Shown here piece after piece: positions 3,755 to 61,382 of a DNA stretch of 64,000 nt. The notes under the pieces are model-generated. The model saw only the letters and a program-made list of their open reading frames with translations. It was not told the DNA's origin and made no database searches. This DNA is from Levilactobacillus yonginensis. GTDB lineage: Bacteria; Bacillota; Bacilli; Lactobacillales; Lactobacillaceae. Where the stretch lies: the NCBI RefSeq assembly GCF_003946265.1, contig NZ_RHNO01000005.1, positions 1 to 64,000 of the forward strand. Direction: 5' to 3'. A program made the translations under genes and the position numbers. Every line of letters starts with the position of its first letter. The first letter of the stretch is position 1.

Positions 3755-3818
3755 TGCTGCAGGTTGTTATTTTAAATTGCGCGTGGTAAGGTAAATGACA
3801 TTCTATTAAAAAAATAAG

Positions 3819-3894
3819 TGATTGCCTATATAATGCCAAGATAAGGTTGGCGAGTTTCTACCCAGAGCCGTAAACTCTGGACTATAAGCAAATT
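3819..3894 (+). promoter_or_regulatory. Purine riboswitch aptamer, guanine class
   Basis: The conserved purine aptamer core is readable: TATATAAT after the first P1 strand, a P2 arm, AGTTTCTACC in J2/3, a P3 arm closed by CCGTAAA, and ACTAT in J3/1 before the second P1 strand. The base that decides specificity (position 74) is C, as in guanine/hypoxanthine sensors, not U as in adenine sensors. It precedes a purine permease gene, as the family does elsewhere. Confidence 0.92.
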
Positions 3895-3896
3895 GA

Positions 3897-3978
3897 GGAC
3901 GAAACTCTTTTTGCCGATGAAAGAGTTCGTCGGCAGAGTTTTCATTTAGCCTCCTTTTTGCAAGGGAGCTTTTTTTGT
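3897..3978 (+). terminator. Riboswitch expression platform and intrinsic terminator
   Basis: Downstream of the aptamer a hairpin (AGCCTCC pairing with GGGAGCT, about 3948-3970) is followed by seven T residues. An alternative stem using GCCGA/TCGGC and AAACTCT/AGAGTTT (3901-3942) can form instead. Ligand binding should favour the terminator, so guanine or hypoxanthine is expected to switch the permease off. Confidence 0.8.
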
Positions 3979-25266: not shown

Positions 25267-25387
25267 ATTTAAGTTAGACATCAAAAGGTTGAAAGCATTG
25301 AAATAACCACTATGCCTGATACAACAAGGATTAGGTATTGGGATTTAGTCGGATATAGTGAAAAATTGCCGCCTTACCGTTCGCCAA

Positions 25388-25550
25388 ATTTGGACTGGAA
25401 CGCGGCGGGCAGGACGGGACAAGCCAAAGAGCGGTCTTGCCCCTCGCTTGAAGCCGCAAAACACGTCTTCAAGTCGCCATTTTCAAGAAAACCACTTGAA
25501 AATCCCATGGCTGAGTCCAAATTTGACTCACTCCCGGCTACCCAGTGGAG
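25388..25550 (+). repeat. Cloverleaf repeat, copy 1 (nested insertion, divergent)
   Basis: This copy has the family plan (hairpins GGGACAAG/CTTGCCCC, CTTGAAGCC/GTCTTCAAG and TTTTCAAG/CTTGAAAA inside a closing stem) but diverged sequence. It interrupts a segment intact at 42.7 kb and is flanked by CGCCAA on both sides (25382-25387 and 25551-25556), a target-site duplication. Strand here, and for the other copies, is the direction in which the GCTGTGGGG arm would be read. Confidence 0.75.
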
Positions 25551-25617
25551 CGCCAATAATGCTGAGTAAATACTGCCATTCAGGTATGTAAGTTAGCTTA
25601 GTTTCCAAGAATCCGTT

Positions 25618-25796
25618 TAACCGGAGGCAGTCAAAGGTGGAGCTCGCTGTGTCGACGGTGTTAGCCGATTTTCGGCTTACAGCGTGGGACGTTTTTGAAG
25701 ACTGGTGGTCTTTCCGGGCTTCAAACCGAGCCGAAGGACCGTTTCTCAGGCCGCAGGCGTTCCCCACAGCAGGCGGAATCTCTGACCGCCGCAGGT
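25618..25796 (-). repeat. Cloverleaf repeat, copy 2
   Basis: Closing stem CCGGAGG..TCAAAGGTGGAG with CCCCACAGC..TCTGACCGCC. Internal hairpins are AGCCGA/TCGGCT, TTTGAAG/CTTCAAA and a CCGAAGGACCG arm. It lies in the convergent gap between the Sce7725-like gene and the esterase-like gene. Confidence 0.75.
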
Positions 25797-25888
25797 GGCG
25801 GGGTGAGACTAATTTTAAACCGATAACGCCTGACTATTCTTGGCTTTATAACGGTCTTCGAACTTTCACCCTTCAGTTAGGTATCAAC

Positions 25889-28998: not shown

Positions 28999-29084
28999 GT
29001 TTATTATTCATATCTCTATTTAAATATTTTAAAAATAGACAATCATCTCGTACAAGAAGTGAACATGCTCGAACATTTAACATT

Positions 29085-29222
29085 CTGAATGCTCAGCCAG
29101 CCTAAGCCATGGGCGTCTTTTAAGACTTGGGGCTTTCATGGCTTAAAAGCGAGCGAGAAGCCCGCCCTTTGACTGAAGCGTCCCCACAGTAGTCCCCAGT
29201 CCCTGGCCGCCGGAGCGCAACT
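29085..29222 (-). repeat. Cloverleaf repeat, copy 3 (truncated)
   Basis: The CCATGGGCG..TTAAGAC/GGCTTAAAA hairpin, the GAGAAGCCCG arm and the right closing arm (TCCCCACAG..CCCTGGCCGCCGGAGCG) are present; the left closing arm is missing, so the outer stem cannot form. It ends two bases from the stop of the APC permease gene. Confidence 0.7.
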
Positions 29223-29224
29223 AA

Positions 29225-30814
29225 CTATTCCTCGTTCACCCGTAAGTTAAGTTCCTCAGCAATCTCGAAGGATTCACTGTGATAAGCATCGTGAACACCC
29301 AGGTAGTAACAACCGAGGCTTCCCAATGTTACCAAGACAAAGTCCCACGGATAGGCCGCAAAGCCAACGCCACCAAACTCATGGCTCCCAATCAACGACA
29401 TAATCGTCAACCAGATCATTTCTGCCAATAGCCAGCGGCTCCCCTTCAGACTCGCACGTAAAGCGTGCCAGCCCGCTGGTTGTCGTACTTCATAGTAAAT
29501 GTAGAAGACGAGGCCGAGGGCAATGACCCCAAAGACTTCGATGGTGGTTGGCCACTTAGCCCAGTAGATAGCCAGACTGGCCAAAATGTACGCCAGTGGC
29601 GACCACCAGTGCACCGCGTGCAGGCGGAATGGCCGAATAAAGTTGGGTGCCTGACGTCGTAACGCTGTCACCGTGACCGGACCCGTCAGGTAAGCAATCA
29701 ACGTAGACGTCGAAATCACGTTAGATAGTGCGCTCCAATTACGGAACCCAGCGACCAACACCACCCCTAGTAGCATGTTGACGACCATCGCCCGCCGAGG
29801 TGTCTGATACTTGCGGTTAACTTCACCCAATTTGGTCGGCATGTGCTTACTCCCCGTCATGGCAGCTAACGCCCGACTGGTGGTCGCCACGAAGGAAACC
29901 CCAGTTCCAAACGGTGAAACGAACGCATCCAGGTATAACAGTGTCGACAGCCAGCCAAGGTTTAATAGAATGGCAATATCTGCGAATGGTGACTGGAAGT
30001 TTACACCGTGCCAACCGTGAGCCAGGTTCCCAGCTGGAACTGCCCCAATGAAGGCTACCTGTAGCATCGTGTAGATAACGGCACTAATGCTGAAGGCAAT
30101 CACGATACTCCAAAAGATATTCTTCTCTGGATGTTCAATTTCATTTCCCATGTTAATGGTCGTTTGAAAAGCATTGTAAGAAAAGATAATTCCGGCAGCC
30201 GTGGTCGCTGAGAAAATCGACGCACTACCGCTTGGCATGAACCCGGCCGCATGGGCAAAATTTTGGGAGTCAAACCCGGTCCAAATCAACACGATAATGG
30301 TCAGTGTTGGAATCAATAATTTGAACATCGAAATAAAACTCGTAAACCGGGTCAGTAACTTGACCGACCAAAAGTTTAAGAGGGTAAAAGCCAGAATAAA
30401 GAGAAAGACAATCACTAATCCCTCGTTGGTAATATTACCAGCCTTAAGAAAGCCCCGCGTCCAATTAGCCCAACTCCAGGGCCATGAACTCATATACTGT
30501 ACCGCTGCCACGGCTTCGATCGGAATAATCGTCAAGAGTGACAACCAATTCGACCAACCGGCAACGAACCCCAGTAACGGGCCATGTGAAAAAGCGGCGT
30601 ACTGACTCATCCCACCGCTCGTCGGGAACATCGTCCCAAGTTCAATATAATTTAACGCAATCAGGCCAATCACGATGGCCCCCAATATCCAGGACAGAAT
30701 GGAAGCGGGTCCCGCGATTTGAGCAGCCATCCCCGCGCCGAACAGCCAGCCGGACCCAATGATGGCGCTCAGCGTTAACATGATCAAAGAAAATAAACTC
30801 ATTTTGCGCTTCAT
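29225..30814 (-). CDS. APC-family amino acid permease
   Basis: 529 residues with about 12-14 membrane helices. The APC opening SAIIGSGWLFG (near residue 17) and the FSYNAFQTTINMGNEIEHPE segment near 215 are typical of the family. It imports or exchanges an amino acid; the substrate cannot be told. ATG 30814 follows GAGGA. No decarboxylase or other pathway gene is adjacent. No hairpin terminator lies after the stop, which abuts a truncated cloverleaf repeat. Confidence 0.85.
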   Translation of the reverse strand: MKRKMSLFSLIMLTLSAIIGSGWLFGAGMAAQIAGPASILSWILGAIVIGLIALNYIELGTMFPTSGGMSQYAAFSHGPLLGFVAGWSNWLSLLTIIPIEAVAAVQYMSSWPWSWANWTRGFLKAGNITNEGLVIVFLFILAFTLLNFWSVKLLTRFTSFISMFKLLIPTLTIIVLIWTGFDSQNFAHAAGFMPSGSASIFSATTAAGIIFSYNAFQTTINMGNEIEHPEKNIFWSIVIAFSISAVIYTMLQVAFIGAVPAGNLAHGWHGVNFQSPFADIAILLNLGWLSTLLYLDAFVSPFGTGVSFVATTSRALAAMTGSKHMPTKLGEVNRKYQTPRRAMVVNMLLGVVLVAGFRNWSALSNVISTSTLIAYLTGPVTVTALRRQAPNFIRPFRLHAVHWWSPLAYILASLAIYWAKWPTTIEVFGVIALGLVFYIYYEVRQPAGWHALRASLKGSRWLLAEMIWLTIMSLIGSHEFGGVGFAAYPWDFVLVTLGSLGCYYLGVHDAYHSESFEIAEELNLRVNEE

Positions 30815-33139: not shown

Positions 33140-33396
33140 AACTTGCCATAAAGCCCGGTCTAACAATATTACAAGGACGTTACAGGTGTCGTAAAGTTTT
33201 AATCTATTTGAAAACACGGCGAACAAACGCCGCGATACTCGTTATTACCATCGTAATATAAGCCCTGAAGCCCCGTGTGACGGTTGTCTGGGCGTCTAAT
33301 AATGTTTATAGTTGATAACGAATGATAAATAAGTCGAGTAAACGACCCATTAACGGGTCCCTTAAATTTAGAAAAGAAAGTACGAGGATGATTAGG

Positions 33397-34503
33397 GTGA
33401 AAATGCACAAAGTCGTTTTAACTGCAGTGGCCGCACTAGGGGCTATCGGTATCTTTGGTGCCACATCAATGACAACTGCCAATGCTGCATCGTCAAAGGT
33501 CAACAACTACATCAGCAGTAAGAATATCAAACCTGCTAAAGTAACTAAGAGTATTTGGAGTGGTTTTCCTAAGAACAAGTACCGTCATGGTAAGGGTAAG
33601 CCAGAAGGAGTCGTTGTTCACGAAACGGCCAACCCATCCTCAACCATTTACAACGAAATTGCCTACATGAAGCGTAACTATAACAACGCCTTCGTTCACA
33701 GTTTCGTTGACGGTTCCCGGATCATCAACATTGCCAACACGGACTACTTAGCTTGGGGTGTTGGTTACCCTGGTAACGCCCGTTTCGTTCAATTCGAACA
33801 AGTCGAGGTGCACAGTAAGTCTGCCTTTGCCCACGAAGTTGCTAACGCTTCTTGGTACACGGCTTACCTTCTGAACAAGTACAACTTAAAGCCTAACGAT
33901 GCTGCCTACGACTACAAAGGCACTGTTTGGTCCCATAAGGCCGTTGCTCACAAACTTGGTGGTTCAACACATACCGACCCAATCGGTTACTACGCTTCCG
34001 CTGGGAAGAAGTACTTTGGTCAAAAGTACACCATGGCTGCCTTCTACAAGATGGTCAAGTCATACTACAACGACATGAACGCAACGAAGCACACGAAGCT
34101 GGCCAGCGCGACCTACACGTCCGTTAACCAGGAAGCTAAGTTGAGCAGCAAGTACACCAAGTACTACCTGTACAACCACGTTAAGGGTGCCAACAAAAAC
34201 GCCAAGCGCCAAAGTTGGTCCAAGATTGCGCCTAAGGTTGGCAAGTCTTACAGCATCGACATGACCGCTAAGAAGAGCAATGGTACCACGTGGTACCGAA
34301 TCAAGCCTTCTAAGGACTCGACCAGCAAGACCCGTTACTGGGTTTATTCCGGTAACCTGACAAACGTTCAAGACGTTGCCACGGAAACGGCCAGTGCTAC
34401 CAGCACTAGCACCAGCTCTGAAAACAACGCCGCCAACAGTTCAAGTGCTACTGAATCCTCTGTTAGTTCTTCTAGCGCTAGCTCAGTAAGTAGCAGCAAC
34501 TAA
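33397..34503 (+). CDS. Secreted N-acetylmuramoyl-L-alanine amidase with SH3-like domain
   Basis: About 368 residues from GTG 33397 behind GAGG; an in-frame ATG at 33388 is possible. A Sec signal peptide ends in TTANA. An amidase_2 domain (about residues 55-215) carries the zinc-site His residues in VVVHETANP, FVHSFVDG and THTDPIGY. A cell-wall-binding SH3-like region (about 230-335) and a Ser/Thr-rich tail follow. It cuts the muramic acid-alanine bond of peptidoglycan outside the cell. Monocistronic with a strong terminator. Confidence 0.87.
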   Translation: MKMHKVVLTAVAALGAIGIFGATSMTTANAASSKVNNYISSKNIKPAKVTKSIWSGFPKNKYRHGKGKPEGVVVHETANPSSTIYNEIAYMKRNYNNAFVHSFVDGSRIINIANTDYLAWGVGYPGNARFVQFEQVEVHSKSAFAHEVANASWYTAYLLNKYNLKPNDAAYDYKGTVWSHKAVAHKLGGSTHTDPIGYYASAGKKYFGQKYTMAAFYKMVKSYYNDMNATKHTKLASATYTSVNQEAKLSSKYTKYYLYNHVKGANKNAKRQSWSKIAPKVGKSYSIDMTAKKSNGTTWYRIKPSKDSTSKTRYWVYSGNLTNVQDVATETASATSTSTSSENNAANSSSATESSVSSSSASSVSSSN

Positions 34504-34518
34504 ATTTAACATTTCTAA

Positions 34519-34552
34519 CGACCATCCATTTGTCTGGGTGGTCGTTTTTTTG
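34519..34552 (+). terminator. Terminator after the amidase
   Basis: ACGACCATCC pairs with GGGTGGTCGT, then T7. Confidence 0.88.
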
Positions 34553-34583
34553 TACTTCTAATTCGGTAGTTGATCGTTAAAGT

Positions 34584-34754
34584 AGCGGTCAGGGGTGGGG
34601 CCCGCTGTGGGGACGCTTCAGCCTGAGGACCGGGCTTCTCGCTCGATTTGAAGCCAGGACAGCCCACCTGTCTTCAAAGTCGCCCATGCCGTAAGCTAGT
34701 AGCCCACTAGCTAACGCCATTTTCACGGCCGGCCCCACCCCTGACCACCTCCGC
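34584..34754 (+). repeat. Cloverleaf repeat, copy 4
   Basis: Closing stem GGTCAGGGGTGGGGCC / GGCCCCACCCCTGACC. Hairpins: GAGAAGCCCG arm, TTTGAAGCCAGG/CCTGTCTTCAAA, and AGCTAGT/ACTAGCT. It follows the amidase terminator. The 290 bp after it (to 35047) show only a small CGTCGAC/GTCGACG hairpin (34913-34943). Confidence 0.8.
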
Positions 34755-35047
34755 TTTGATTGATCATTACCACCTCATCAGTGCAAACCAACGCTCATAG
34801 TGGCGTCAGTACTAACTGATATTGCCACTGAAGACCACTTAATCTACTTACAAACTCTCACCCCAAGATTACTGCATTGCCATAGGATTCAAATTAATTG
34901 CCTACAAAAACGTCGTCGACACCTCTCATTAGAGATTGTCGACGACTATTTTAGTCATACTTTATAGCTCCCTAAGCGACCACTAACCAGTTATCACACT
35001 AACCGCTGTAAATGACCAATCAGTTTCAACAAAATAACACTATGTTA

Positions 35048-35227
35048 GCGTAGGTGGCCTGGGACGGGGCCAGCCGTGAAAGTGGTGTTAATTGGCAGTT
35101 TTTTTGCCAATTTACAGTACGGGCGAGCTTGGAGACACGTGGGTTCCGTGGCTTCAAGTCGAGCGAGAAGCCCGCTCTTTGGCTGAAGCGTCCCCACAGC
35201 TGGCCCCGTCCCAGGCCGCCGAAGCGC
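35048..35227 (-). repeat. Cloverleaf repeat, copy 5
   Basis: Closing stem GGCCTGGGACGGGGCCAGC / GCTGGCCCCGTCCCAGGCC. Hairpins: AATTGGCA/TGCCAATT, CTTGGAGACACG/CGTGGCTTCAAG and GAGAAGCCCG arm. It ends 10 bp from the stop of the YibE/F gene, which has no other visible terminator. Confidence 0.82.
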
Positions 35228-35237
35228 GAGATTGCTG

Positions 35238-36020
35238 TTACTCACCCATTTTAGCTTTATCAGCACGTTTACGTTGACCGGCCACGGCGCGGGTCATGAC
35301 CCACGTCGTAATTGGCACGGTCAAGATAACACTGACCATAGCAAATAAAATCATCAAAATTTCTGAAACAAAGATTTTATCATTTAAGATTTCACCGAAT
35401 GAGTAATGAACACCGGTAAACCAGATAAACAGTGCTAGAAAGCCACCAAAGAACCCAAAGAACAAGGTATTAAACGTCGTCCCAATGATTTGCTTACCGA
35501 CGGCGATACCATCACCCATCAAGGCCTTTAAACCCACCTGAGGATGCTGCTCAAGGATTTCACTAAGACCAGCGGCAATTGCCATAGCAGCCTCGGCAAT
35601 CGCCCCCAGCGTGCTTAGAATGGCCGTAGCAGTGGTTACCTGTACGAAGCTGATCCCCACCAAGACGGATAAGCCTTCAAGGTCCTCACTATCTTCCGGT
35701 CCGAATCCTTGAACGAGAGCCCACTGTTCCACTGGAACAATGACGGCGACCAGGACGACTAGCACGACCGCAGACGCAATGAAGGCCACGGTGCTAGACA
35801 AGTCATCCCCACTGCTCATGAAGATGGTCAAAGCTAGCACTAGCATCCCCGTCACCAGGGTAACGATCAACGGTGAGAAGTGAAACGCCACTAAAACAAT
35901 TGCCAGAAATAACAGGCCAAAATTGAGAATCAACGCTAGAAATGACTGCGCCCCCGCTTTACCACCGACTAAAATCATCAACATTAGTAGAATTAATCCC
36001 AAAGTACTGATTGTACTCAT
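35238..36020 (-). CDS. YibE/F-family membrane protein (small partner)
   Basis: 260 residues, about seven membrane helices, with the family segments LSVLVGISFVQVTTATAILS near residue 113 and LFWGFFGG-like GTTFNTLFFGFFGGFLALF near 187. It overlaps its partner gene by 4 bp. YibE/F pairs are widespread in lactic acid bacteria; transport function is unproven. Confidence 0.8.
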   Translation of the reverse strand: MSTISTLGLILLMLMILVGGKAGAQSFLALILNFGLLFLAIVLVAFHFSPLIVTLVTGMLVLALTIFMSSGDDLSSTVAFIASAVVLVVLVAVIVPVEQWALVQGFGPEDSEDLEGLSVLVGISFVQVTTATAILSTLGAIAEAAMAIAAGLSEILEQHPQVGLKALMGDGIAVGKQIIGTTFNTLFFGFFGGFLALFIWFTGVHYSFGEILNDKIFVSEILMILFAMVSVILTVPITTWVMTRAVAGQRKRADKAKMGE

Positions 36021-38251: not shown

Positions 38252-39136
38252 ATGAAAAAGTTTTTATTGGGCGCCCTAGGACTCTTAGCTTTGACCCTAG
38301 CCGGCTGCTCTAGTAACAAGCTCACCACCAATAAAAGTAGCTATCACCCAACTGCATTGACCGCTGTGGTGAAAGGCAATACCAAGTCCAAAACGGTCAC
38401 CTACCAAATCGATGGTGGCCAGAAACAAAAGGCCGAGGTTAGCGGCGGCACTTACTTCTTCCAAGTTCCAGCTGCTACTAAGGACCAACAAGTCAAAATC
38501 ACTGCTGGGACGGCCCACAAAAACGTTTCAGTGAAACACGTCACAGCATTGGCTAACTACAAAAAGTTCGCTGCAAAGTACAATCAAATGGTGATTGCCA
38601 CCCACTTACCAGCAAAGGTACAAAAACAATTAGCTAGTGCGCAAAAGACCCAAGCCGCTACTAAAAAGAAGTTAGCCGCCCTGGCCCAAACGAATCCTGC
38701 CGCAGCTGCAGCCGCTGTCCAAAAGCAACAAGCCGCTGCCAAGCAACTCCAAGCACAGATGGCCACAGCCAAAAAAGCTGCTAAGGACGACCTTTTGCCA
38801 ACGAATACGGCTGCGGGCGTGAAAAACCTGATCAGTACCAAAGCCGTCACCGTCCGGGGCAATGTTCAAGATGGTAAATTGATGGGCTTAGCACTGATCA
38901 CACCCACTAAGCAAATGAAAACGAAGTCTGGCCAAAAGGATTTCGGGACCACCTTTGCGCTGTTGGGTGGCTCACTCAATGCCAAACCTAAGTACGTCAT
39001 CAAGAAGTTTGAAAAGGTTTTGAAGGACGCAAAGAAGAACAGTAGCTCCACGACGACCAAGACGATTCGGTCGAACGGCGTGCGGTTCAACACTGGTTTC
39101 TCTACCGATCATCTCTACATCTACATGACGAAATAG
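38252..39136 (+). CDS. Lipoprotein with Ala/Gln/Lys coiled-coil segment
   Basis: 294 residues. Signal peptide with lipobox LAGC (Cys 19). A beta-rich N-terminal part (about 30-95), then an Ala/Gln/Lys coiled coil (about 120-185) and a C-terminal domain (about 195-294) ending HLYIYMTK. It should be anchored outside the membrane. No named domain recognised. A cloverleaf repeat begins 30 bp after the stop. Confidence 0.78.
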   Translation: MKKFLLGALGLLALTLAGCSSNKLTTNKSSYHPTALTAVVKGNTKSKTVTYQIDGGQKQKAEVSGGTYFFQVPAATKDQQVKITAGTAHKNVSVKHVTALANYKKFAAKYNQMVIATHLPAKVQKQLASAQKTQAATKKKLAALAQTNPAAAAAAVQKQQAAAKQLQAQMATAKKAAKDDLLPTNTAAGVKNLISTKAVTVRGNVQDGKLMGLALITPTKQMKTKSGQKDFGTTFALLGGSLNAKPKYVIKKFEKVLKDAKKNSSSTTTKTIRSNGVRFNTGFSTDHLYIYMTK

Positions 39137-39166: not shown

Positions 39167-39345
39167 CTCCGGTCGACAGGGTGGGTGTCTGCTGTGGGGA
39201 CCGGAGAAAGCCAAAGTACGGTCTTTCTCCTCGACTTCAAGCCTCGGCAAACCACCAAGGCTTGAAGATCGTCCCGTGCTGTAAGCTCGAAGGACCTGAG
39301 CTAACACCACCTTCACAGCTGCCACCCACCCTGTCGACCTCCGGC
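39167..39345 (+). repeat. Cloverleaf repeat, copy 6
   Basis: Closing stem GGTCGACAGGGTGGG / CCCACCCTGTCGACC. Hairpins: GGAGAAAG/CTTTCTCC, CTTCAAGCCTCGG/CCAAGGCTTGAAG and AGCTC/GAGCT. The rest of the gap to 39711 shows only A/T-rich promoter-like DNA for the MarR-type gene. Confidence 0.8.
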
Positions 39346-39711
39346 TCATGCAACTCATGAGTAAATCAACTTAATTCGCTCACTTGTTGACTTGTCATAC
39401 TGGTCCTCAAGGCAACCTTCACTATCGTTAACAAGTTTACTTTCGTTTCTAAAATAACTATCTTAATCCGTTCATCCCTGCTGTGTCAGTCAGATGAGCG
39501 GATTTTCTTTTGCCATCAACCAAGTTCCTTCCCCAACTGTGATTTAGAAAACAAGCTGACCTTTCTTAATCACAGTGGATAAGCGCAATTGTTTTTATCC
39601 CCACCCGTCAGGCCGCATAATAACGGTATGCTGAGTTAGTGAAGAATGCTGGTCATTTTACCAGCAAATTGCACCAAATCGGCTGAATTCGTTTTCCTAG
39701 GGGGAGTTATC

Positions 39712-40395: not shown

Positions 40396-42354
40396 ATGCG
40401 ACTTAATCATTTCACGTCTGATGTTTCTGCCGGTGGCTCAACATCAGCGTTTCCCGTAGACGAAAGTAAACTGACCCAGGACTTCTATGACGCGGTCAAT
40501 GGCAAGTGGGCTGAACAAGCCACCATCCCCGCCGACCACGCTTCAACTGGTGGGTTCATGGACTTAGTCGACAATATCGAGCACACTCTGATGGCTGACT
40601 TTGCCGACCTCTTAGCGGGCAAGCTGGCCCCCGCCAATCCGGAAATGGCCGAATTCAAAAAACTATACGCCTTAGCCAGCGATTTCGACCGGCGCGAAAA
40701 CGATGGCACCGCCCCATTGAAACCTTGGTTGACTAAAATTGCCAACCTCAAGGACTTCGCAGACTTAAACGCTCATTTAGTAGAGTGGTACCAAAAAGGA
40801 CTCCCCGTACCAATCGACTTGGGTGTCGAACCCGACATGAAAGATACCAGTCGATACGCCCTGTACGTTGACGCCCCTAGCCTGTTCTTACCAGACAAGA
40901 CTTACTATGCCAAGGACAATCCCGCAGCCAAGCAATTAATGCCCATCTTCACGCAAACGGCCGTCAAACTCTTACAACTGGCGGGCTACGCCGAAGCTGA
41001 GGCCACAACCATCGTGGAACAAGCGAAGGACTTTGATGCCCAGATTGCCCCTCACGTAAAGTCCGCTGAAGAATCAGCCGACTACGTCAAGATGTACAAC
41101 CCCTTCCCATTGAAGGACGTTGACGCCAAATTAACCAACATTGACTTGACCAACGCCATCAAAGGCGTTATTAACGACGTGCCTGAACAAGTCATTCTGC
41201 CCCAACCACTCTTCTTCGACGCGGCCAATGACATTCTGACACCGGCCAACTTTGAGGCCATTAAGAGCTGGATGCTGGTCAAGACCGTCTTCGATGCCAG
41301 TGGGGCCTTAACCGAAGAATTCCGTCAGATTGGCGGGACATATGGCCGGGCACTATCTGGTCAGAAGCAGGCCCGTTCACAGAAAAAGGCCGCTTACTAC
41401 CTGGCCACTGGTACGTTTGGTCAAGTCGTGGGTGACTACTACGGGCGTAAATACTTTGGTGAAGCAGCCAAGGAAGACGTCCGGCAGATGGTCCTCAAGA
41501 TGACCCACGTTTACCAACAACGGTTAAAGACCAACGACTGGCTCAGTGCGGACACTCGTGAAAAGGCCATCGTGAAGTTGCAGAAACTGACTATCAAGGT
41601 GGGCTACCCAGACACTATCGACGCCCTCTACAGCAAGTTTAAGATTGACGAGCAAGCCTCACTGTATGACAACCTGCAAACCATTACCGAGACCATCATT
41701 GCCAACCACTTCGGCCACTGGGGCCAACCCGTTGACCGGAAGAAGTGGGAAATGAGTGCGAATACTGTGAACGCCTACTACTCCCCTTCCAACAACGAAA
41801 TCGTCTTCCCTGCTGCCATTCTACAAGCACCATTCTACAGTCTCCAGCAGTCTAGCAGTGCCAACTACGGGGGAATTGGGGCCGTCATTGCTCACGAAAT
41901 CTCTCATGCTTTTGACAACAATGGTTCCCAATTCGATGAATTTGGGAACATCCACAATTGGTGGACGGAAGCCGACCTGACCCATTTCAAGGACCTGGCT
42001 AAGTCGATGATCCATGAATTTGATGGCATTGAATTTGCCGGACAAAAGGTCAACGGTCAATTAACAGTTTCCGAAAACATTGCCGATGCCGGTGGTTTAA
42101 GCTGTGCCTTAGAAGCCGCTAAATCAAGTGATGACGTTGACCTCCGCGCATTCTTCATCAACTGGGGCAACGTTTGGCGGATGAAGGCTACCACGGAATA
42201 CATGCAACTGCTGTTGTCGATTGACGTCCACGCCCCCGCCAAGCTACGGGCCAACGTGCAGGTCAAAAACCTCGACGACTTCTACACGACCTTCAACGTC
42301 CAACCGGGTGACCAGATGTACTTGGCCCCTGTCGACCGCGTTAAGATCTGGTAG
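40396..42354 (+). CDS. pepO: Neutral endopeptidase PepO, M13 family
   Basis: 652 residues, a usual length for bacterial PepO. The zinc site HEISHAFD (near residue 497) and the ENIADAGG motif with the third ligand (near 555) are intact; the C-terminus MYLAPVDRVKIW is typical. No signal peptide, so it cuts oligopeptides in the cytoplasm after uptake. ATG 40396 has AAGGAGG upstream. Monocistronic with a strong terminator. Confidence 0.93.
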   Translation: MRLNHFTSDVSAGGSTSAFPVDESKLTQDFYDAVNGKWAEQATIPADHASTGGFMDLVDNIEHTLMADFADLLAGKLAPANPEMAEFKKLYALASDFDRRENDGTAPLKPWLTKIANLKDFADLNAHLVEWYQKGLPVPIDLGVEPDMKDTSRYALYVDAPSLFLPDKTYYAKDNPAAKQLMPIFTQTAVKLLQLAGYAEAEATTIVEQAKDFDAQIAPHVKSAEESADYVKMYNPFPLKDVDAKLTNIDLTNAIKGVINDVPEQVILPQPLFFDAANDILTPANFEAIKSWMLVKTVFDASGALTEEFRQIGGTYGRALSGQKQARSQKKAAYYLATGTFGQVVGDYYGRKYFGEAAKEDVRQMVLKMTHVYQQRLKTNDWLSADTREKAIVKLQKLTIKVGYPDTIDALYSKFKIDEQASLYDNLQTITETIIANHFGHWGQPVDRKKWEMSANTVNAYYSPSNNEIVFPAAILQAPFYSLQQSSSANYGGIGAVIAHEISHAFDNNGSQFDEFGNIHNWWTEADLTHFKDLAKSMIHEFDGIEFAGQKVNGQLTVSENIADAGGLSCALEAAKSSDDVDLRAFFINWGNVWRMKATTEYMQLLLSIDVHAPAKLRANVQVKNLDDFYTTFNVQPGDQMYLAPVDRVKIW

Positions 42355-42420: not shown

Positions 42421-42820
42421 CGTTATTAACTAAAGCTATCAAGCCAAGAATAACAAGGCGTCATCGACTTTCACCTGCGGCGGTCAGAGATTCCGCCTGC
42501 TGTGGGGAACACCTGCGGCCTGAGAAGCGGTCCTCCGGCTCAGTTTGAAGCCTGGGAAAAACACCAGTCTCCAAACACATCCCACGCTGTAAGCCGAAAT
42601 CGGCTAACACCGTCGACACAGCTGGCTCCACCTCTGACCTCCTCCGGTTAAACGGGTTTTTGGAAACTAAGCTAGCTTACATGCCTGGTAGACAGATATT
42701 ATTGGCGAACGGTCAGGCGGCAATTTTTCACTATGGCTGACTAAGCCCCAAAATCCTCGTCGTATTAGACATAGTGGGTGTTTCAGTGCTTTCAACCTTT
42801 AGGTAATTAACTTAGAACCC
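42421..42820. repeat. Composite repeat region, homologous to the reverse complement of 25267-25850
   Basis: Outside the hairpin element at 42474-42652, the segment 42653-42820 aligns with the reverse complement of 25267-25617 minus the nested insert there. The uninterrupted site ATTATTGGCGAACGG is at 42699-42713. The origin of the extra 170 bp is unknown; it encodes no protein. Confidence 0.7.
42474..42652 (+). repeat. Cloverleaf repeat, copy 7
   Basis: Closing arms CGGTCAGAGATTCCGCC and GGCTCCACCTCTGACC. Hairpins include TTTGAAGCC/GTCTCCAAA and AGCCGA/TCGGCT with the CACCGTCGACACAGC end. It follows the pepO terminator. Confidence 0.78.
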
Positions 42821-42910: not shown

Positions 42911-43098
42911 TAGCCGGAGGACGACAGGGAGGACCCGCGCGGTGTCGACGGTGTTGGTTGGCGTCCTATGCCAGCCTACACCGTGGGGCGGCTGGGAAAC
43001 TCGGTGACTTCCCGAGGTTGCCAGTCGAGGAGAAAGACCGCTCTTCGGCTTTCTCCGGCCCCCACAGCGGGGGTCCTCCCTGGCGGCCGGAGGCGGAC
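42911..43098 (-). repeat. Cloverleaf repeat, copy 8
   Basis: Closing stem CAGGGAGGACCCGC / GCGGGGGTCCTCCCTG. Hairpins: GGTTGGC/GCCAGCC, CTGGGAAACTCGG/CCGAGGTTGCCAG and GGAGAAAG/CTTTCTCC. It ends 3 bp from the stop codon of the ribonucleotide reductase gene, which has no other terminator. Confidence 0.82.
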
Positions 43099-43100
43099 AT

Positions 43101-45359
43101 TTACCGAATTGGGCAAGCACCACTGGCACAGTCGGATTGATCGACTAATTCAACATCCTTCTGATCATGATGCCCCGTCATTTCCGCAAACTTGACCGCC
43201 ACGTCCGCCGAAATTTCAGCTCGCTTTTGGTTATAAGTTGCTTCATCAATGGGTTCCTTAGGTGCCTGTTCAAAGTCTGCCCCACTGTAAGGTAACAGTG
43301 ATGTTGACTTAATCGTGTGCCGGTACTGCAGCAGTAGCCGACTGATTTCCGCACCTTCCTTGGGTTGGAACGTCACGGTACAACTGACCGCGTTATCGGA
43401 CCAGTAGGTCTGGAGGAATGCCTGCGTCGCAAATTGTTCTGCCATGGAGACTTCACCCGCAGATGCAAACGCTGATTGATCTGCATGCGCTGCCTTAACT
43501 GGAAATTCCACACACATGGTATTTTGACTGTAAACATCCGGCTCGACCTTGTAGCCACAGGCTTTTAAAGCAGGTAACAACGGATCACTATCCTGGAACC
43601 GAATCCGTTGAATCAGGTAACGGGAATAATGGAAATGCATTCCCTCTGAGACACCAGCCAGCTTGGCCACCGTGCCGGAAGGTTTGACCGTCGTATGCTT
43701 AATCGAGGGCTGGCAACCCAGCGTTTCAGAATACGTCTTATCAGCTTGAACGACCGCCGCGAAGAGATCGTTGAACCGTTTGACCGCCGCCTGATTATAA
43801 ATAGGCTGCATGAACGTCTGACCAGTTTCAGTATCCTTTTTAGCTTCAAATCCAGTCACGACCCGTTGACTGAACGTCTTTAAAATCCAGTCCTGAATAC
43901 CAGACATGGAGACCCCGATCCGTCGATTCTTTTGAATAACTTTCCGGGAAACCTCCCAATCGTAATGACTAAAGGTCACCCGCTTCGTGTAACGAGCACC
44001 TAACGCAAAGGCGTCTTCCAATTGCCACCCCTGTTCCTCGGCCACGCTTGGAAAGACTTCAAACAGGTTGCAGGGTTCACCATTACTCAGAGAGATCTCA
44101 CCGCAGGGATTGGTCCCTTCAACTTCGCCATCAATATCGGGTTGTCGGCCATCGATCAGCCGGCCATAGTCACGTGAAAGTCCCAGGTTCACAATACCGG
44201 GTTCCCCGTTATGTTGAATGGAATCCGCAATCGGTTGGTAATCCGCAAACTGACTATCCACCGCTACACTGTTATTAGATGCCCACCGGTGATGATACAG
44301 TTTATCCTTATCCTGTTTCATGGTAATGAAGTCGTCGTCTTCAGCACCACCTAAGGCCAGTTCCGCGGACCGGCGAACGTTGCCGGCAACGACCGTTTTA
44401 CCAATTAAATTCCCCATATCCGTACAATCGACCGCAGACAATTTCCGTCCAGCGGCGTCGTTCAAAATCTGGTTGATGTCAAAGAGCATCTCCACCAGTG
44501 GCATCGGCCCAGACGCCGTCCCACCAAAGCCGTGGATTGGCGCATCCTTAGGACGAATATCACTGATATCTAAGACGACTTGCGCCTGACCCTCCGGATT
44601 GCTGGCATTGAAATGAGCGTCGATCATGTTGGCGTTGGCCAACACCCAGCCCTCACGGGTATCTGGGAGCCGGTAGTAGCGTGTCTTCGCTAATGAATGG
44701 TGCTGCATCCAATCAGTCCGGTCAACAGCTCCTAACGCTACTGAGGCGTCATAGGACGCACTCCGAGAATCAATCACAATGGTTAGATCAATTTGCCGGT
44801 CAACCCGGGGCATTTGACGCACGTTGTTGGGTGTTACGGAAAAGCCAACCCCGCCGCCCTTCATGAGTTGATCAAACATGAAGGAAAATGGCATGGAAAC
44901 CGCTGCCTGGTCCTGTTCCAAGTAGTCTGGAACCAGGTGACTGTCACCATATGGTTGTGGCCGCACCGCGATAAACCAACAGTTATTCAGAGCATCCCCA
45001 TTACGGTGTTGGTAGTCCGTTCCCGAGATCCATAAATTCCGGCCGGATGGTGTCGCTGCCAGTCCGTAGACTAATCGGTAGAGGTTCTGAGCCTCTTGGG
45101 TCAAGTCCGCCACCACCTGGTCAGCCACTGCACCCGTCTGTAGCCGTGGATCAAGGTTGATATTGCCTTCAACCACGCGTTTGACCGTCTCTGGCCACTC
45201 CTCAGTCCGTTGCTGCTCAGGTAACCATCGCGCGTAGGTCCGTTTGTACGTGACCCAGCCTAATTCACCCCAATGTGGGGTCACCTCGTCCTGTGTTTTT
45301 TTAATGAAATCAGCCGATAGTGTGACCATCGGCGTCGTTACTGTATTCATCAAACTCAT
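43101..45359 (-). CDS. rtpR: Adenosylcobalamin-dependent ribonucleoside triphosphate reductase (class II)
   Basis: About 750 residues; the in-frame ATG at 45350 is an alternative start. It makes deoxynucleotides using B12. The conserved catalytic Cys and Glu are in NPCGEISL, a redox Cys in ALNNCWF near residue 119, and the C-terminal shuttle pair in DCASGAC at the end. Substrate loop SGTVAKLAG is present. Monomeric form as in L. leichmannii. Tandem NrdR-like boxes overlap the promoter. No cobalamin riboswitch is seen. Confidence 0.94.
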   Translation of the reverse strand: MSLMNTVTTPMVTLSADFIKKTQDEVTPHWGELGWVTYKRTYARWLPEQQRTEEWPETVKRVVEGNINLDPRLQTGAVADQVVADLTQEAQNLYRLVYGLAATPSGRNLWISGTDYQHRNGDALNNCWFIAVRPQPYGDSHLVPDYLEQDQAAVSMPFSFMFDQLMKGGGVGFSVTPNNVRQMPRVDRQIDLTIVIDSRSASYDASVALGAVDRTDWMQHHSLAKTRYYRLPDTREGWVLANANMIDAHFNASNPEGQAQVVLDISDIRPKDAPIHGFGGTASGPMPLVEMLFDINQILNDAAGRKLSAVDCTDMGNLIGKTVVAGNVRRSAELALGGAEDDDFITMKQDKDKLYHHRWASNNSVAVDSQFADYQPIADSIQHNGEPGIVNLGLSRDYGRLIDGRQPDIDGEVEGTNPCGEISLSNGEPCNLFEVFPSVAEEQGWQLEDAFALGARYTKRVTFSHYDWEVSRKVIQKNRRIGVSMSGIQDWILKTFSQRVVTGFEAKKDTETGQTFMQPIYNQAAVKRFNDLFAAVVQADKTYSETLGCQPSIKHTTVKPSGTVAKLAGVSEGMHFHYSRYLIQRIRFQDSDPLLPALKACGYKVEPDVYSQNTMCVEFPVKAAHADQSAFASAGEVSMAEQFATQAFLQTYWSDNAVSCTVTFQPKEGAEISRLLLQYRHTIKSTSLLPYSGADFEQAPKEPIDEATYNQKRAEISADVAVKFAEMTGHHDQKDVELVDQSDCASGACPIR

Positions 45360-46268: not shown

Positions 46269-46321
46269 ATCCGCCTCCGGTTGCCAGGTGGGGGCCTGCT
46301 GTGGGGACCGCCTCCGGCTAC
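46269..46321 (+). repeat. Cloverleaf repeat, copy 9 (remnant)
   Basis: Only one closing arm (CCTCCGGTTGCCAGGTGGGG then CCTGCTGTGGGGACC) and an outer CCTCCGGC remain; the hairpins are gone. It lies 15 bp after the MarR-family gene. Confidence 0.65.
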
Positions 46322-46545
46322 ATTGACTCACAATCAACGTTAGACTAACACTTTCAGAATGAATTCATTTGTACGTTCCCCAAGGAAAACATCCAAAATT
46401 TTCTCGAAATATCGACGATCAGTCATCAATTAAAAACAAATCGTCAGTCAAAATAGACTAGCTTTAATCGATAGAATTTATCTAGCTTCAAGCCAACCTT
46501 GACTGCGGACACTATCAAATGCTGTATTTGCTTGCCCCACCACTG

Positions 46546-46735
46546 TAGCCGAAGGCGGACAGGAATGGTACCGGCTGTGTCGACGGTGTTGACTGGCGTT
46601 TTTGGCCAGTCTACAGCGTGGGACGAGCTTGGAGACGTGGTGCCCTATCCACGGCTTCAAGTCGAGGTAAAAGACCGCACCACAGGCTTTTACCGGTCCC
46701 CACAGCCGGTACCATTCCTGGCAGCCGTAGGCGGC
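46546..46735 (-). repeat. Cloverleaf repeat, copy 10
   Basis: Nearly perfect closing stem ACAGGAATGGTACCGGCTGTG / CACAGCCGGTACCATTCCTG (each about 20 nt). Hairpins: GACTGGC/GCCAGTC, CTTGGAGACGTGG/CCACGGCTTCAAG, GGTAAAAGACCG/GGCTTTTACC. It is the best example of the family in the window. Confidence 0.85.
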
Positions 46736-50486: not shown

Positions 50487-50670
50487 TAGCCGCAGGCAGA
50501 CAGAGTGCCGCGCAGTGTCGAGATTCTAAGGAAGTGTTTTTTACTTCCTTAGAATCTGGGTCGAACTTGGAAACTCGTGTTTTTCGAGGTTTCAAGTCGC
50601 TCTGAAGACTTGTGCTTTTTACAAGGCTTCAGAGGTGCCCCACAGCGCGGTACTCTGTCTGCCGTAGGCG
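50487..50670 (-). repeat. Cloverleaf repeat, copy 11 (inside the gal operon)
   Basis: Closing stem GGCAGACAGAGTGCCGCG / CGCGGTACTCTGTCTGCC. Hairpins: ATTCTAAGGAAGT/ACTTCCTTAGAAT (perfect), CTTGGAAACTCG/CGAGGTTTCAAG and CTGAAGACTTGT/ACAAGGCTTCAG. It is between galK and galE and would be transcribed in the operon mRNA. Confidence 0.83.
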
Positions 50671-50693: not shown

Positions 50694-51863
50694 TTACTTT
50701 TGTAATTCGGCAGGACCGTCAGCAATTTCTGCGACGTAGAATTCTGCTGGATGGCCGATAGTGTCTTCATAGACCTTACCAACCTTAGCTTCGAAGTCTT
50801 CAACGTTAGATTTCTTAACGATAGCAATGGCACAGCCACCGAAACCGGCACCAGTCATCCGGGCACCTAAGACACCAGGTTGTTTCCAAGCGGTTTCAAC
50901 CAACGTATCCAATTCCTTACCCGTAACTTCAAAGTCGTAGTGTAAGGAAATGTGAGAAGCGTTGACCAATTCACCGAAGCTCTTTAAGTCGCTCTTTTGC
51001 AGAGCGGCAAAGGCCTTCAACGTCCGTTGGTTTTCGAAGACGGCGTGACGCGCACGCTTGATCAAAGTTTCATCGTTGATCAGGTAAGCATTTTGATCAA
51101 ATTGATCTTCGTTTAAGTCACCCAACGTCTTGATGTCTAACTTCGTTTGCAAACGACGTAAGGCTTCTTCACATTGTGCCCGCCGTTCGTTGTACTTGGA
51201 GTCGGTCAATTCACGACGCTTCTTGGTGTTCATGATAACCACGACGTTGTCACCCAAGTCTAGGGGTGCGTATTCGTAATCCATGGTGTTGGTATCCAAC
51301 AGAATGGCTTGGTCCTTCTTACCCATACCGATAGCAAATTGGTCCATGATCCCGGTGTTCAAACCGAAGTAGTCATTTTCAACTTGTTGGCCGACCTTAA
51401 CCATTTCAACTTCGTCTAACTTCATGCCATATGCGGCGCGAAGAATCTCGCCCATCAACATTTCCATTGAAGCTGATGAGGACAAGCCAGAAGCATCTGG
51501 TAAGTTCCCGTGAACGAAGAGGTCAAAACCGTGATCGATGGTCAAGTCTTGCTTGGCTAGTTCGAACAACATCCCCTTCAGGTAGTTGGCCCAGTTATCA
51601 GCCTTGTTAAAGGCTAAGTTATCCAGTGAGAACGTCAATACGCCAGCGTCAGGAACGTTTGCGGAGTAAACGCGGAATTGCTTGTCGTCTCGTGCTGAGT
51701 ATGCGGCGTAAGTCCCCATACTGATAGCGGCTGGGAAAACGTGACCACCGTTGAAGTCGGTGTATTCACCAATCAGGTTGATTCGTCCTGGTGAGAAGAA
51801 GACCCGTTCTGGTGCGACGTTAAATTGTTCTTGGTATTCAGATGCTAAGCTGGCGAAATCCAT
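50694..51863 (-). CDS. galK: Galactokinase
   Basis: 389 residues. GHMP-kinase motifs: SPGRINLIGEYTDFNGG (near 24), ATP loop LPDASGLSSSASMEM (near 128) and GARMTGAGFGGC (near 339). It phosphorylates galactose at C1. It opens the galKETR unit, with a consensus promoter, an operator and a cre site upstream. Confidence 0.95.
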   Translation of the reverse strand: MDFASLASEYQEQFNVAPERVFFSPGRINLIGEYTDFNGGHVFPAAISMGTYAAYSARDDKQFRVYSANVPDAGVLTFSLDNLAFNKADNWANYLKGMLFELAKQDLTIDHGFDLFVHGNLPDASGLSSSASMEMLMGEILRAAYGMKLDEVEMVKVGQQVENDYFGLNTGIMDQFAIGMGKKDQAILLDTNTMDYEYAPLDLGDNVVVIMNTKKRRELTDSKYNERRAQCEEALRRLQTKLDIKTLGDLNEDQFDQNAYLINDETLIKRARHAVFENQRTLKAFAALQKSDLKSFGELVNASHISLHYDFEVTGKELDTLVETAWKQPGVLGARMTGAGFGGCAIAIVKKSNVEDFEAKVGKVYEDTIGHPAEFYVAEIADGPAELQK

Positions 51864-59734: not shown

Positions 59735-60700
59735 ATGTCAAAACCAGAATTATGGGTCATTGCGGAACGCCGCTTAGACCACATTGAACCCACTACCCAA
59801 CAATTGATCACTAAAGCCCGTGACTTAGCCGGCGATAGCTTCAAGACGGTGGTCATCCTGTTGGAGGCGGCAACGGACCATTTGGAAGACGAATTAAAAC
59901 CCTACGGTCCCGATGAAATACGGGTCGTTCGGGATGACCGCTTCCCAACAGCTACCGACGCTGAACACGCCGATGCCCTTCAACAACTAGTTGAAACCTA
60001 TCACCCCAATGGTGTGCTCTTCGGTGCCACCATCACGGGTCGCTCCATCGCCCCTCGTTTACAGGCAAAGCTTCAAACCGGGTTAACTGCCGATGCGTTG
60101 GGCTTACGCTATGACGGTGAAACATTGATTGCCGTGAAGCCTTCCTATGGGGATAACATTATGTGTGAAATTACCATCCCCGAGCGCCGACCACAGATGG
60201 TTACGGTACGACCAAACACCTTCGTTGCTGAAGAAGCTGCTGGACCCGCCGAAATCACGACCACGACGGTCACCTTCCACCCCGTTGCTCGGTTACAAGT
60301 GACAGCGGCAACGCCAGTCGTTAACACGGCCACAACGGTCGGCGATGCCAGTCGCGTCGTCGCACTGGGCCGTGGTGCGGCCAGTGCCGCCATGGTCAAC
60401 CACGCCACTCAATTAGCCGAAAAGCTAGGTGGACGGATTGGGGTCTCCCGGCCATTGACCGATCAAGACCGGTTCACTCATGACGATCAAATCGGCCAGA
60501 GTGGAAACACCATTCACCCCGAGCTGATCATCAACTTCGGAATCAGTGGTGCCGTCCAATTCTTGGTCGGGATGCAGGATGCTAAGACGATTGTGGCAGT
60601 CAATTCTGACCCCAACGCACCAATCTTCGATGTCGCTGATTACGGCTACGTGGGGGATGCTCAAGCATTCATGACCGCATTACTCGCCCAATTTAACTAA
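59735..60700 (+). CDS. etfA: Electron transfer flavoprotein alpha subunit
   Basis: 321 residues. The C-terminal FAD domain shows GRGAAS, GVSRPL, IGQSGNTIHPEL, GISGAVQFLVGM and the AVNSDPNAPIFDVADYG region (about 205-300). AAGGAGG precedes ATG 59735. Last gene of the operon, followed by a strong terminator. Confidence 0.92.
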   Translation: MSKPELWVIAERRLDHIEPTTQQLITKARDLAGDSFKTVVILLEAATDHLEDELKPYGPDEIRVVRDDRFPTATDAEHADALQQLVETYHPNGVLFGATITGRSIAPRLQAKLQTGLTADALGLRYDGETLIAVKPSYGDNIMCEITIPERRPQMVTVRPNTFVAEEAAGPAEITTTTVTFHPVARLQVTAATPVVNTATTVGDASRVVALGRGAASAAMVNHATQLAEKLGGRIGVSRPLTDQDRFTHDDQIGQSGNTIHPELIINFGISGAVQFLVGMQDAKTIVAVNSDPNAPIFDVADYGYVGDAQAFMTALLAQFN

Positions 60701-60783: not shown

Positions 60784-60963
60784 GCGCTCCGGCGGCCAGG
60801 GGTGGGCCTTGCTGTGGGGACGCTTCAGCCTGAGAACCTGGCTTCTCGCTCGATTTGAAGCCAGGTCCAGCCCACCTGTCTTCAAAGTCGCCCATGCCGT
60901 AAGCTAGCAACCCACTAGCTAACGCCATTTTCACAGCCGGTCCCACCCCTGGCCGCCTCCGAC
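60784..60963 (+). repeat. Cloverleaf repeat, copy 12
   Basis: Closing stem CGGCGGCCAGGGGTGGG / CCCACCCCTGGCCGCC. Hairpins: GAGAAGCC arm, TTTGAAGCCAGG/CCTGTCTTCAAA and AGCTAG/CTAGCT. It is very close in sequence to copy 4 at 34.6 kb. Confidence 0.82.
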
Positions 60964-61203: not shown

Positions 61204-61382
61204 GCCGGAGGTGGCCTGGAGTGGAGCTTGCTGTGAAAATGGCTTTGGCTAGCGTTTTACTAGCCTAGGCCATGGGCGACTTTGCAGACACGTGAATTTC
61301 GTGGCTTCAAATCGAGCGGGAAGCCCGCCCTTTGGCTGGAGCGTCCCCACAGCAAGCGTAACTCCAGGCCACCGTAGTGCGT
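61204..61382 (-). repeat. Cloverleaf repeat, copy 13
   Basis: Closing arms GGTGGCCTGGAGTGGAGC and CTCCAGGCCACC. Hairpins: GGCTAG/CTAGCC, CTTTGCAGACACG/CGTGGCTTCAAA and GGAAGCCCG arm. It ends 8 bp from the stop of the PEPCK-like gene. The 61-bp to 240-bp stretch between copies 12 and 13 shows no gene. Confidence 0.8.

Follow-up and report, generated by a model that had tools for sequence, protein, structure and literature searches.

A large structured intergenic repeat of Levilactobacillus, commonly arranged in outward-facing pairs near gene 3′ ends

The 64,000-nucleotide stretch of Levilactobacillus yonginensis DNA analysed here (the window) holds copies of a folded repeat between its genes. 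At positions 34,584 to 35,227, a forward and a reverse gene converge on a spacer that contains two copies, together with a hairpin that may terminate the reverse operon (Table 1). Other copies lie beside the ribonucleotide reductase gene 43101-45359(-) and past an electron-transfer flavoprotein gene. The window also includes a purine riboswitch aptamer at 3806-3904(+) (71.8 bits), and the gene 61391-63109(-) encodes a 572-aa protein with a short, weak match to ATP-dependent PEP carboxykinase (25.7 bits, below the cut-off). A preliminary description had listed thirteen related segments in the window, and twelve of them match our covariance model, R1, although ten of these are rows of the alignment behind the model and so match by construction (those at 25375 and 29058 are outside it); the thirteenth, at 46269, is a stub without a match.

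Table 1. Copies of the repeat and associated features in the window
Feature	Position	Strand	Evidence and context
Copy of MITE-1, with both of the following elements inside	25284..25874	.	Inward-pointing TIRs AAAGGTTGAAAG / CTTTCACCCTTC; related units elsewhere have 7-9-bp duplications
Diverged element within MITE-1	25375..25535	-	R1 49.1 bits
Type B element within MITE-1	25622..25794	+	R1 129.6 bits
Partial element, model positions 27-148	29058..29188	+	R1 64.1 bits; 37 bp to 3′ end of 29225-30814(-)
Type A element, left member of outward-facing pair	34580..34753	-	R1 165.3 bits; outer end towards stop codon of 33322-34503(+)
Spacer hairpin beyond the element, putative intrinsic terminator of the 35238-36020(-) operon	34896..34965	-	Predicted from sequence
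Type A element, right pair member	35049..35224	+	R1 182.8 bits, blastn matches in the same genome; outer end 13 bp from 35238-36020(-)
Type B element, single	39167..39343	-	R1 156.6 bits; 31 bp to stop of 38252-39136(+)
Type B element, pair following 40396-42354(+)	42475..42646	-	R1 match; MITE-1 TIR at 42789-42800
Type B element, same pair as 42475..42646	42915..43092	+	R1 match; 8 bp to 3′ end of 43101-45359(-)
Element stub: closing-stem arms without internal hairpins	46269..46323	-	Sequence; no R1 match
Type B element, used as the structural reference	46550..46730	+	R1 156.7 bits
Type B element, single	50491..50667	+	R1 120.4 bits; 27 bp to 3′ end of 50694-51863(-)
Type A element past electron-transfer flavoprotein gene 59735-60700(+) and its terminator	60787..60961	-	R1 165.5 bits
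Type A element, right pair member	61206..61377	+	R1 166.3 bits; 13 bp to 61391-63109(-)

To describe the family, we worked mainly from the genome to which the window belongs (G000, 2.69 Mb; here, the home genome). A blastn search of this genome with window positions 35048-35227 gave at least 44 matches, some of them overlapping, from the best 40 of 160 candidates, and an iterative nhmmer search of the window and further stretches recovered 81 copies, 64 of them full length. Alignment A1 contains 62 of these 64 (L027:7421-7581, which is internally deleted, and the divergent copy at 25392 were excluded), and R1 was built from these 62 copies. Counts of A.G, U.U, and G.G mismatches and of G.U and A.C cells, as well as the tree-based null described below, used 63 copies. 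The repeats are one real family.

Each element forms a fold of about 175 nt with six helices: a closing stem, hairpin 1, and a short helix around hairpins 2 and 3. On the strand that reads hairpins 1-2-3, the closing stem (about 25 bp) ends in GCnGTG/CACAGC, and a GNAG tetranucleotide stands at its foot. The short enclosing helix, GGGNC/GNCCC, was absent from the plan first proposed, which had an outer stem and three hairpins. Hairpin 1 has a U.U mismatch in 61 of 63 copies and often a G.G mismatch (33/63). In the middle hairpin, the A.G mismatch reported in the preliminary description is present in 59 of 63 copies; the G.T pair reported with it does recur but is not constant, the pair adjoining the mismatch being G-U in 17 of 62 copies and A-U in 39. 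An apical module, AGAC/GGCU, is found in hairpin 2 in 48/62 copies; hairpin 3 has this module in 13/62 and a fully paired AGCC/GGCU in 35/62, and the sharing of the module suggests a duplication. Hairpin 3 is otherwise of two types. Type A (40/62) has an internal loop that is near-invariant and rich in purines and contains G.A and A.G oppositions; three neighbouring positions in it are conserved in 37 to 40 of 40 copies. In type B (22/62), the stem varies, with compensatory changes. Hairpin 3 is missing altogether from some relatives, in which the element is about 140-150 nt.

That selection acts on the structure, as originally proposed, is borne out by covariation. Of 3545 cells in A1, 93.8% are paired, and shifting the partners by 1-3 columns lowers this share to 32-46%, in a control that favours the proposed structure because this was derived from the same sequences. 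Two-sided changes occur at 44 of 58 pairs (shuffled mean 27.5), and doubly changed cells number 439 vs 111.8 in shuffles. Across species and genera, an alignment of 86 matches (A2), which was aligned to the model and is hence biased towards its structure, has double changes at 56/58 pairs and 1259 doubly changed cells vs 350. An R-scape-style test against a tree-based null (40 simulated alignments) gave nine column pairs with E<0.05, all nine in proposed stems; this is far below 58, which points to low test power or to weaker remaining pairs. The same cells identify the strand. G.U cells outnumber A.C cells 118 to 30 (binomial p 1.5e-13, from cells that are not independent), so the strand with hairpins 1-2-3 is the folded one, in agreement with the preference suggested earlier, and its RNA folding energy is the lower of the two in 53/62 copies of A1 and 70/86 of A2. 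With DNA energy parameters, 61/62 copies prefer that strand too; strand preference alone is thus no proof of RNA. One strand is selected to fold, either as RNA or as single-stranded DNA. Because the fold is kept despite sequence change, the element probably does a job for the cell.

The elements follow a consistent arrangement relative to each other and to genes. On the complete chromosome of a second genome (G028), 36 neighbours lie within 800 bp of each other, and 31 are in the outward-facing orientation ('-+'), three are '--', two are '++', and none are '+-'; inverted pairing of this kind is also a feature of REPIN/RAYT systems. In the home genome, 28 of 51 units have more than one copy, of which 26 are '-+' and two '-++'. 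A broader 869-kb sample of this genome includes 28 singles and 37 regions with more than one copy: 30 '-+', three '-++', three '--+', and a sole '+-+', whose one '+-' neighbour is about 500 bp apart. Elements not borne by a MITE avoid divergent promoters: they occupy 21/63 convergent, 30/230 tandem, and 3/70 divergent intergenic regions of at least 100 bp, where part of the tandem class is possibly convergent since the genes come from our own ORF scoring, which overlooked some small ones. Of 16 non-MITE singles in tandem regions, 12 face a gene 3′ end. Outermost copies lie at a median of 59 bp from 3′ ends (n=59; 12/59 closer than 20 bp) vs 155 bp from 5′ ends (n=23).

The position of terminators varies with this distance. 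When the element is <35 bp from the stop codon, a terminator is found before it in 0/23 cases and beyond it in 10/23, and when it is 70-120 bp away, the terminator comes first in 13/17. No T-run directly follows the fold, either in flank conservation or in a listing of the flanks, and the element by itself is therefore no intrinsic terminator. Terminators in the native direction beyond elements show no clear enrichment (12/39 vs 51/269). Promoters show no enrichment over shuffles in the 120 bp that precede the folded strand, and promoter signals between 5′-facing elements and the next gene are weak, the forward score exceeding the shuffled one in 13/24. Singles in tandem regions would yield native RNA only by antisense transcription.

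At some gene ends, a copy recurs in different genomes of the genus. A copy within 250 bp, its outer end towards the gene, follows ETF-alpha in 18 of 28 loci and YibE, which is present in 35 genomes, in 10 of 30 loci scanned. The ETF-proximal copies are no more alike among themselves (0.767) than they are to ETF-distal ones (0.763), so this genus-deep recurrence is one of position and orientation only.

Between close species, individual copies look constrained. We located 47 of 67 units in the close species G027 and aligned 51 shared elements, MITE-borne copies included. Substitutions amount to 559/8719 (6.4%) in elements, 1123/8842 (12.7%) in adjacent spacer, and 340/5912 (5.75%) in adjacent gene sequence; gaps amount to 0.19%, 2.6%, and 0.29%, respectively. 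Shared copies are constrained nearly as much as adjoining coding sequence, and the difference between element and spacer makes individual copies, not the family alone, look held by selection. An earlier subset of 14 copies gave 5.2% (element), 15.2% (spacer), and 5.7% (gene); it consisted of 15 of 20 A1 rows on contig C45 that aligned (5 partial), minus window:25622, which was excluded because its true counterpart is on another G027 contig. Within this subset, 63 of 851 unpaired positions changed. Among 54 changed pairs, eight are double compensations, 22 are single changes kept as G.U, 22 are single breaks, and two are double breaks. The structure is thus imperfectly kept, as the 22 single breaks indicate, and some of the double changes could stem from copies exchanging sequence.

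Part of the family is mobile. MITE-1 is a unit without a gene that can hold a '-+' pair between TIRs of approximately CTAAAGGTTGAAAG, and RAAGGTTGAAAG occurs 32 times in the home genome, compared with 0 for a reversed control. In the 869-kb sample, 22 of 109 intergenic elements have a MITE-1 TIR (up to 2 mismatches) no more than 110 bp away, and the other 87 have none beside them. The preliminary description had named a match to a known element, such as a MITE, as grounds for refutation; a MITE with TIRs and target duplications, though no named one, does carry a minority of the sampled copies, and the majority have no such TIR. Four MITE-1 insertions are polymorphic between the home genome and G027, with target duplications of 7-9 bp; two are in G027, at home positions 39450 (9-bp duplication, one mismatch) and 70480 (9 bp exact), and two are in the home genome, at C1 ~240.8-241.4 kb (9 bp exact) and C2 ~52.8-53.4 kb (7 bp). 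One of the polymorphic insertions directly follows a terminator. At pairs other than MITE-1, we saw no target duplications between these two genomes.

We inspected all 19 of the 47 units located in G027 that differ in length by >90 bp. The differences are MITE-1 gains and part-losses, internal deletions leaving stem stubs, spacer changes, duplications, and swaps; two sites have no clear assignment (C12 156658 and C1 138701), and none of the 19 is a clean insertion of a non-MITE pair. At two sites (home C1 269663-270168 and C2 23792-24410), the left element occurs twice in tandem in G027 vs once in the home genome, so single elements also get duplicated. Different units occupy the same site at C34 84579 and C1 222016. 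At the former, home C34 84579-84998 and G027 C12 84566-84936 belong to different subfamilies. Copies appear to have been swapped by recombination, as at C34 84579. Altogether, a MITE has captured one subfamily and moved it recently, and internal deletions remove copies. Loss can be extensive: in a 140-kb region of G028 (C1 2280001-2420000, L214-L220), most elements are lost or eroded to stubs, and element density along this chromosome is very uneven (variance/mean 4.4). Frames between well-separated copies were considered as transposase candidates and, judged by eye, resemble ordinary genes rather than a transposase. Another intergenic hairpin repeat, AACCCCGATAGACAAACAATCC...GTCTATCG, which is unrelated to this family, also occurs at several sites, including home C45 ~85160-85300 (L026) and G027 C41 near 79165-79326; once, it stands at a site where the home genome has a MITE-1 copy.

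The search of related genomes with a covariance model that the preliminary description recommended shows that the family is widespread in Levilactobacillus. The ribonucleotide reductase encoded in the window places its host in this genus, with L. tongjiangensis as the nearest species in that scan. R1 matches are present in 34 of 35 genomes of the genus, 27 of which have at least 47 matches (best 47 candidates per genome scored), and no match was found in 23 genomes from other families of the order, again among the best 47 candidates per genome. When 295 genomes were drawn evenly from the order, 12 had R1 matches among the best 9 candidates per genome; they represent 5 of 74 genera, all in the Lactobacillaceae, the family of the window. 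Four genera of this family besides Levilactobacillus thus have matches. Among 80 named ribonucleotide reductase loci, R1 matches 11 of 16 from Levilactobacillus; the other 64 include four matching Companilactobacillus loci (L074, L086, L087, L114), a weak match in one Loigolactobacillus (L082), and one more with E 0.006 (L078).

Copy numbers are high in most of these genomes. The home genome has at least 150 matches (150 of 150 scored candidates), and its 869-kb sample contains 114 copies. Extrapolation from this sample gives about 300-350 copies per 2.7-Mb genome, a total that may be too high because sample contigs were partly picked for holding copies. In G028, at least 146 matches (best 150 candidates scored) are all chromosomal, with 0 on four smaller contigs. 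Lower counts were obtained, with the best 150 candidates scored, for G012 (35), G015 (10), and G031 (3), and G021 has no R1 match among the best 150 of 519 candidates. The best scores vary strongly among genomes of the genus. A plasmid collection (two queries) and a phage collection (one query) yielded no element match, a control query having found at least one L. brevis plasmid in the former, and an exact-pattern scan of IMG/VR also yielded none. This distribution, the outward-facing pairs, the bias towards gene 3′ ends, the MITE-borne subfamily, and the locus-by-locus constraint are all new beyond the preliminary description.

We found no matching description of the element in open-licence PMC papers, and the available portions of PMC2267715, PMC11109978, and PMC8632094 contain nothing that matches it. 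The earlier statement that no described element has this plan agrees with Rfam, where only the purine riboswitch and tRNA exceed the gathering threshold in the whole window and a permissive scan of 34500-35300 gave three matches, all far below it. Among known systems, intrinsic and bidirectional terminators also lie between convergent genes and often beside elements; however, the element lacks a T-run, is much larger, and has conserved internal loops, and terminators near elements are, where found, separate hairpins before or after them. BOX elements of Streptococcus pneumoniae are likewise modular, structured, intergenic repeats in Lactobacillales, but the element has no Rfam match, and its plan and sequence presumably differ from those of BOX. 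REP, BIME, and REPIN repeats occur near gene ends, as do these elements. They also share many extragenic palindromic copies in alternating orientation (PMC2817692, in the part available). The differences are that a REP is a short hairpin while the element is a six-helix fold of ~175 nt, that the element is not tied to a Y1 transposase, and that its copies are constrained between species, in a comparison made among the elements. Like MITEs, one subfamily has TIRs, short target duplications, no gene, and recent insertions; unlike them, 87 of 109 sampled copies have no such TIR, and the G028 matches are confined to the chromosome. The mobile or repeat candidates of an intergenic-RNA survey (PMC11109978) are likewise structured motifs that occur in many copies between bacterial genes and show covariation; the motif in the available text is a single long stem, and the main text as available has no word beginning 'lactobac'. 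The element belongs broadly with dispersed structured repeats, but is larger, is constrained per locus, and has no known transposase tie.

What could such an element do? We tentatively favour the possibility that the host keeps the elements to block, in a strand-specific way, transcription that runs out of the intergenic region. The functional form would arise when RNA polymerase exits this region across the exit element, with the folded strand made as RNA, and the exit element would then halt transcription, release it, or give rise to a stable 3′ end. The block would act before antisense invasion of the neighbouring gene or collision with its promoter. In a convergent region, polymerase would transcribe the element on its own side as the unfavoured strand and the far one as the favoured strand, and an outward-facing pair would insulate both neighbours; in tandem pairs, the second element lies upstream of the next gene. 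A barrier, or a fold that forms 3′ ends, would explain why elements pair as they do, favour 3′ ends, avoid divergent promoters, and are constrained. We infer this mechanism from a structure, an arrangement, and a constraint that are themselves observed.

Such barriers would stand in a genus that seems to lack Rho, which silences antisense read-through in other bacteria (PMC9931155, in the part available). None of 35 Levilactobacillus genomes has a Rho match above the cut-off, which 8 of 14 control genomes reach. Matches below it fall almost entirely in frames of 473 or about 518 aa, which are putative ATP synthase subunits. A wider version, which we regard as doubtful, is that in the seemingly Rho-less Levilactobacillus, hundreds of outward-facing RNA-fold insulators substitute for Rho against antisense read-through, having been seeded or refreshed in part by MITEs. 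G021 has neither an R1 match nor Rho above the cut-off, so lack of Rho is not sufficient, and this genome, together with the G028 region that lost many copies, indicates that the elements are not obligatory. The barrier proposal is also weakened by the missing promoter signal and T-run, by native-direction terminators that show no clear enrichment, by the dependence of tandem singles on antisense transcription, and by the 22 singly broken pairs.

A real though somewhat unlikely alternative is that these are selfish non-autonomous mobile elements, each outward-facing pair forming the subterminal ends of a MITE-like transposon, with the structure kept because a transposase or single-stranded DNA intermediate requires the fold. 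The TIRs of MITE-1 and its ability to carry a '-+' pair, the four polymorphic sites with target duplications, the tandem doubling of the left element in G027 at two sites, and best scores that differ among genomes as if each had its own subfamilies all fit this explanation. It is less compatible with the 87 intergenic elements that have no MITE-1 TIR nearby, the lack of any clean non-MITE pair insertion among the 19 differing units, the constraint at shared sites, which is unexpected for dead copies, and the exclusively chromosomal matches of G028, with none in plasmids, phages, or IMG/VR. Selfishness explains MITE-1 well and the remaining copies less well. We consider it very improbable that the elements are REPIN- or BIME-like and are moved by a RAYT (Y1 transposase), perhaps being bound by gyrase or another DNA protein. 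Inverted pairs, 3′-end location, high copy number, and the GNAG at the closing-stem foot, which can be compared with REP elements, speak for such a relationship. The REP fold is far smaller, and Y1_Tnp has no match in 12 of 35 genomes of the genus, including the element-rich G002, G011, G016, G030, and G032 (at least 47 matches each); furthermore, 0 of 5 loci around Y1 matches in the home genome hold an element. Mobilisation by RAYT/IS200 was rejected as contradicted by this absence and by the element-free Y1 loci. The home genome does contain broken or partial copies of IS200-type Y1 transposase (G000:C15:17264-17621 and C24:18128-18364).

The remaining alternatives concern the form in which the fold acts. 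An unlikely one is that the elements work purely as DNA, with a topoisomerase, nucleoid protein, or repair protein binding a cruciform or a single-stranded fold in the spacers of chiefly convergent genes. This would suit the preference of DNA parameters for the same strand in 61/62 copies, the low share of G.U cells (118/2795), the enrichment in convergent regions, and the missing promoter signal, yet a cruciform has no preferred strand, contrary to the G.U to A.C ratio, and a protein that reads single-stranded DNA needs a source of single strand while pairs carry both orientations. Still less probable is that the elements are RNA 3′-UTR structures or small RNAs, with the native strand either acting as a regulatory RNA or giving long read-through transcripts a stable 3′ end. 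Covariation, strand bias, the conserved internal-loop bases of type A hairpin 3, and the AGAC/GGCU module common to hairpins 2 and 3 are as expected for such RNAs; however, the element is antisense to the adjoining gene 3′ end, so the mRNA carries the unfavoured strand, the gene terminator lies beyond the element in 10 of 23 elements close to a stop, and the folded strand has no promoter signal upstream.

Whether as transcription barriers, the use we favour, or otherwise, one 2.7-Mb genome gives at least 150 sites to a single large fold outside Rfam. The arrangement rule is simple, with outer ends towards genes, and the copies compared are constrained individually. L. brevis is common in food and beer and is also a sourdough species, which makes RNA-seq and genetic tests feasible. 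If the elements are mobile instead, they would represent an unusual mobile fold conserved by its host; as barriers, they open a testable question, namely how Rho-less bacteria prevent neighbouring genes from transcribing into each other.
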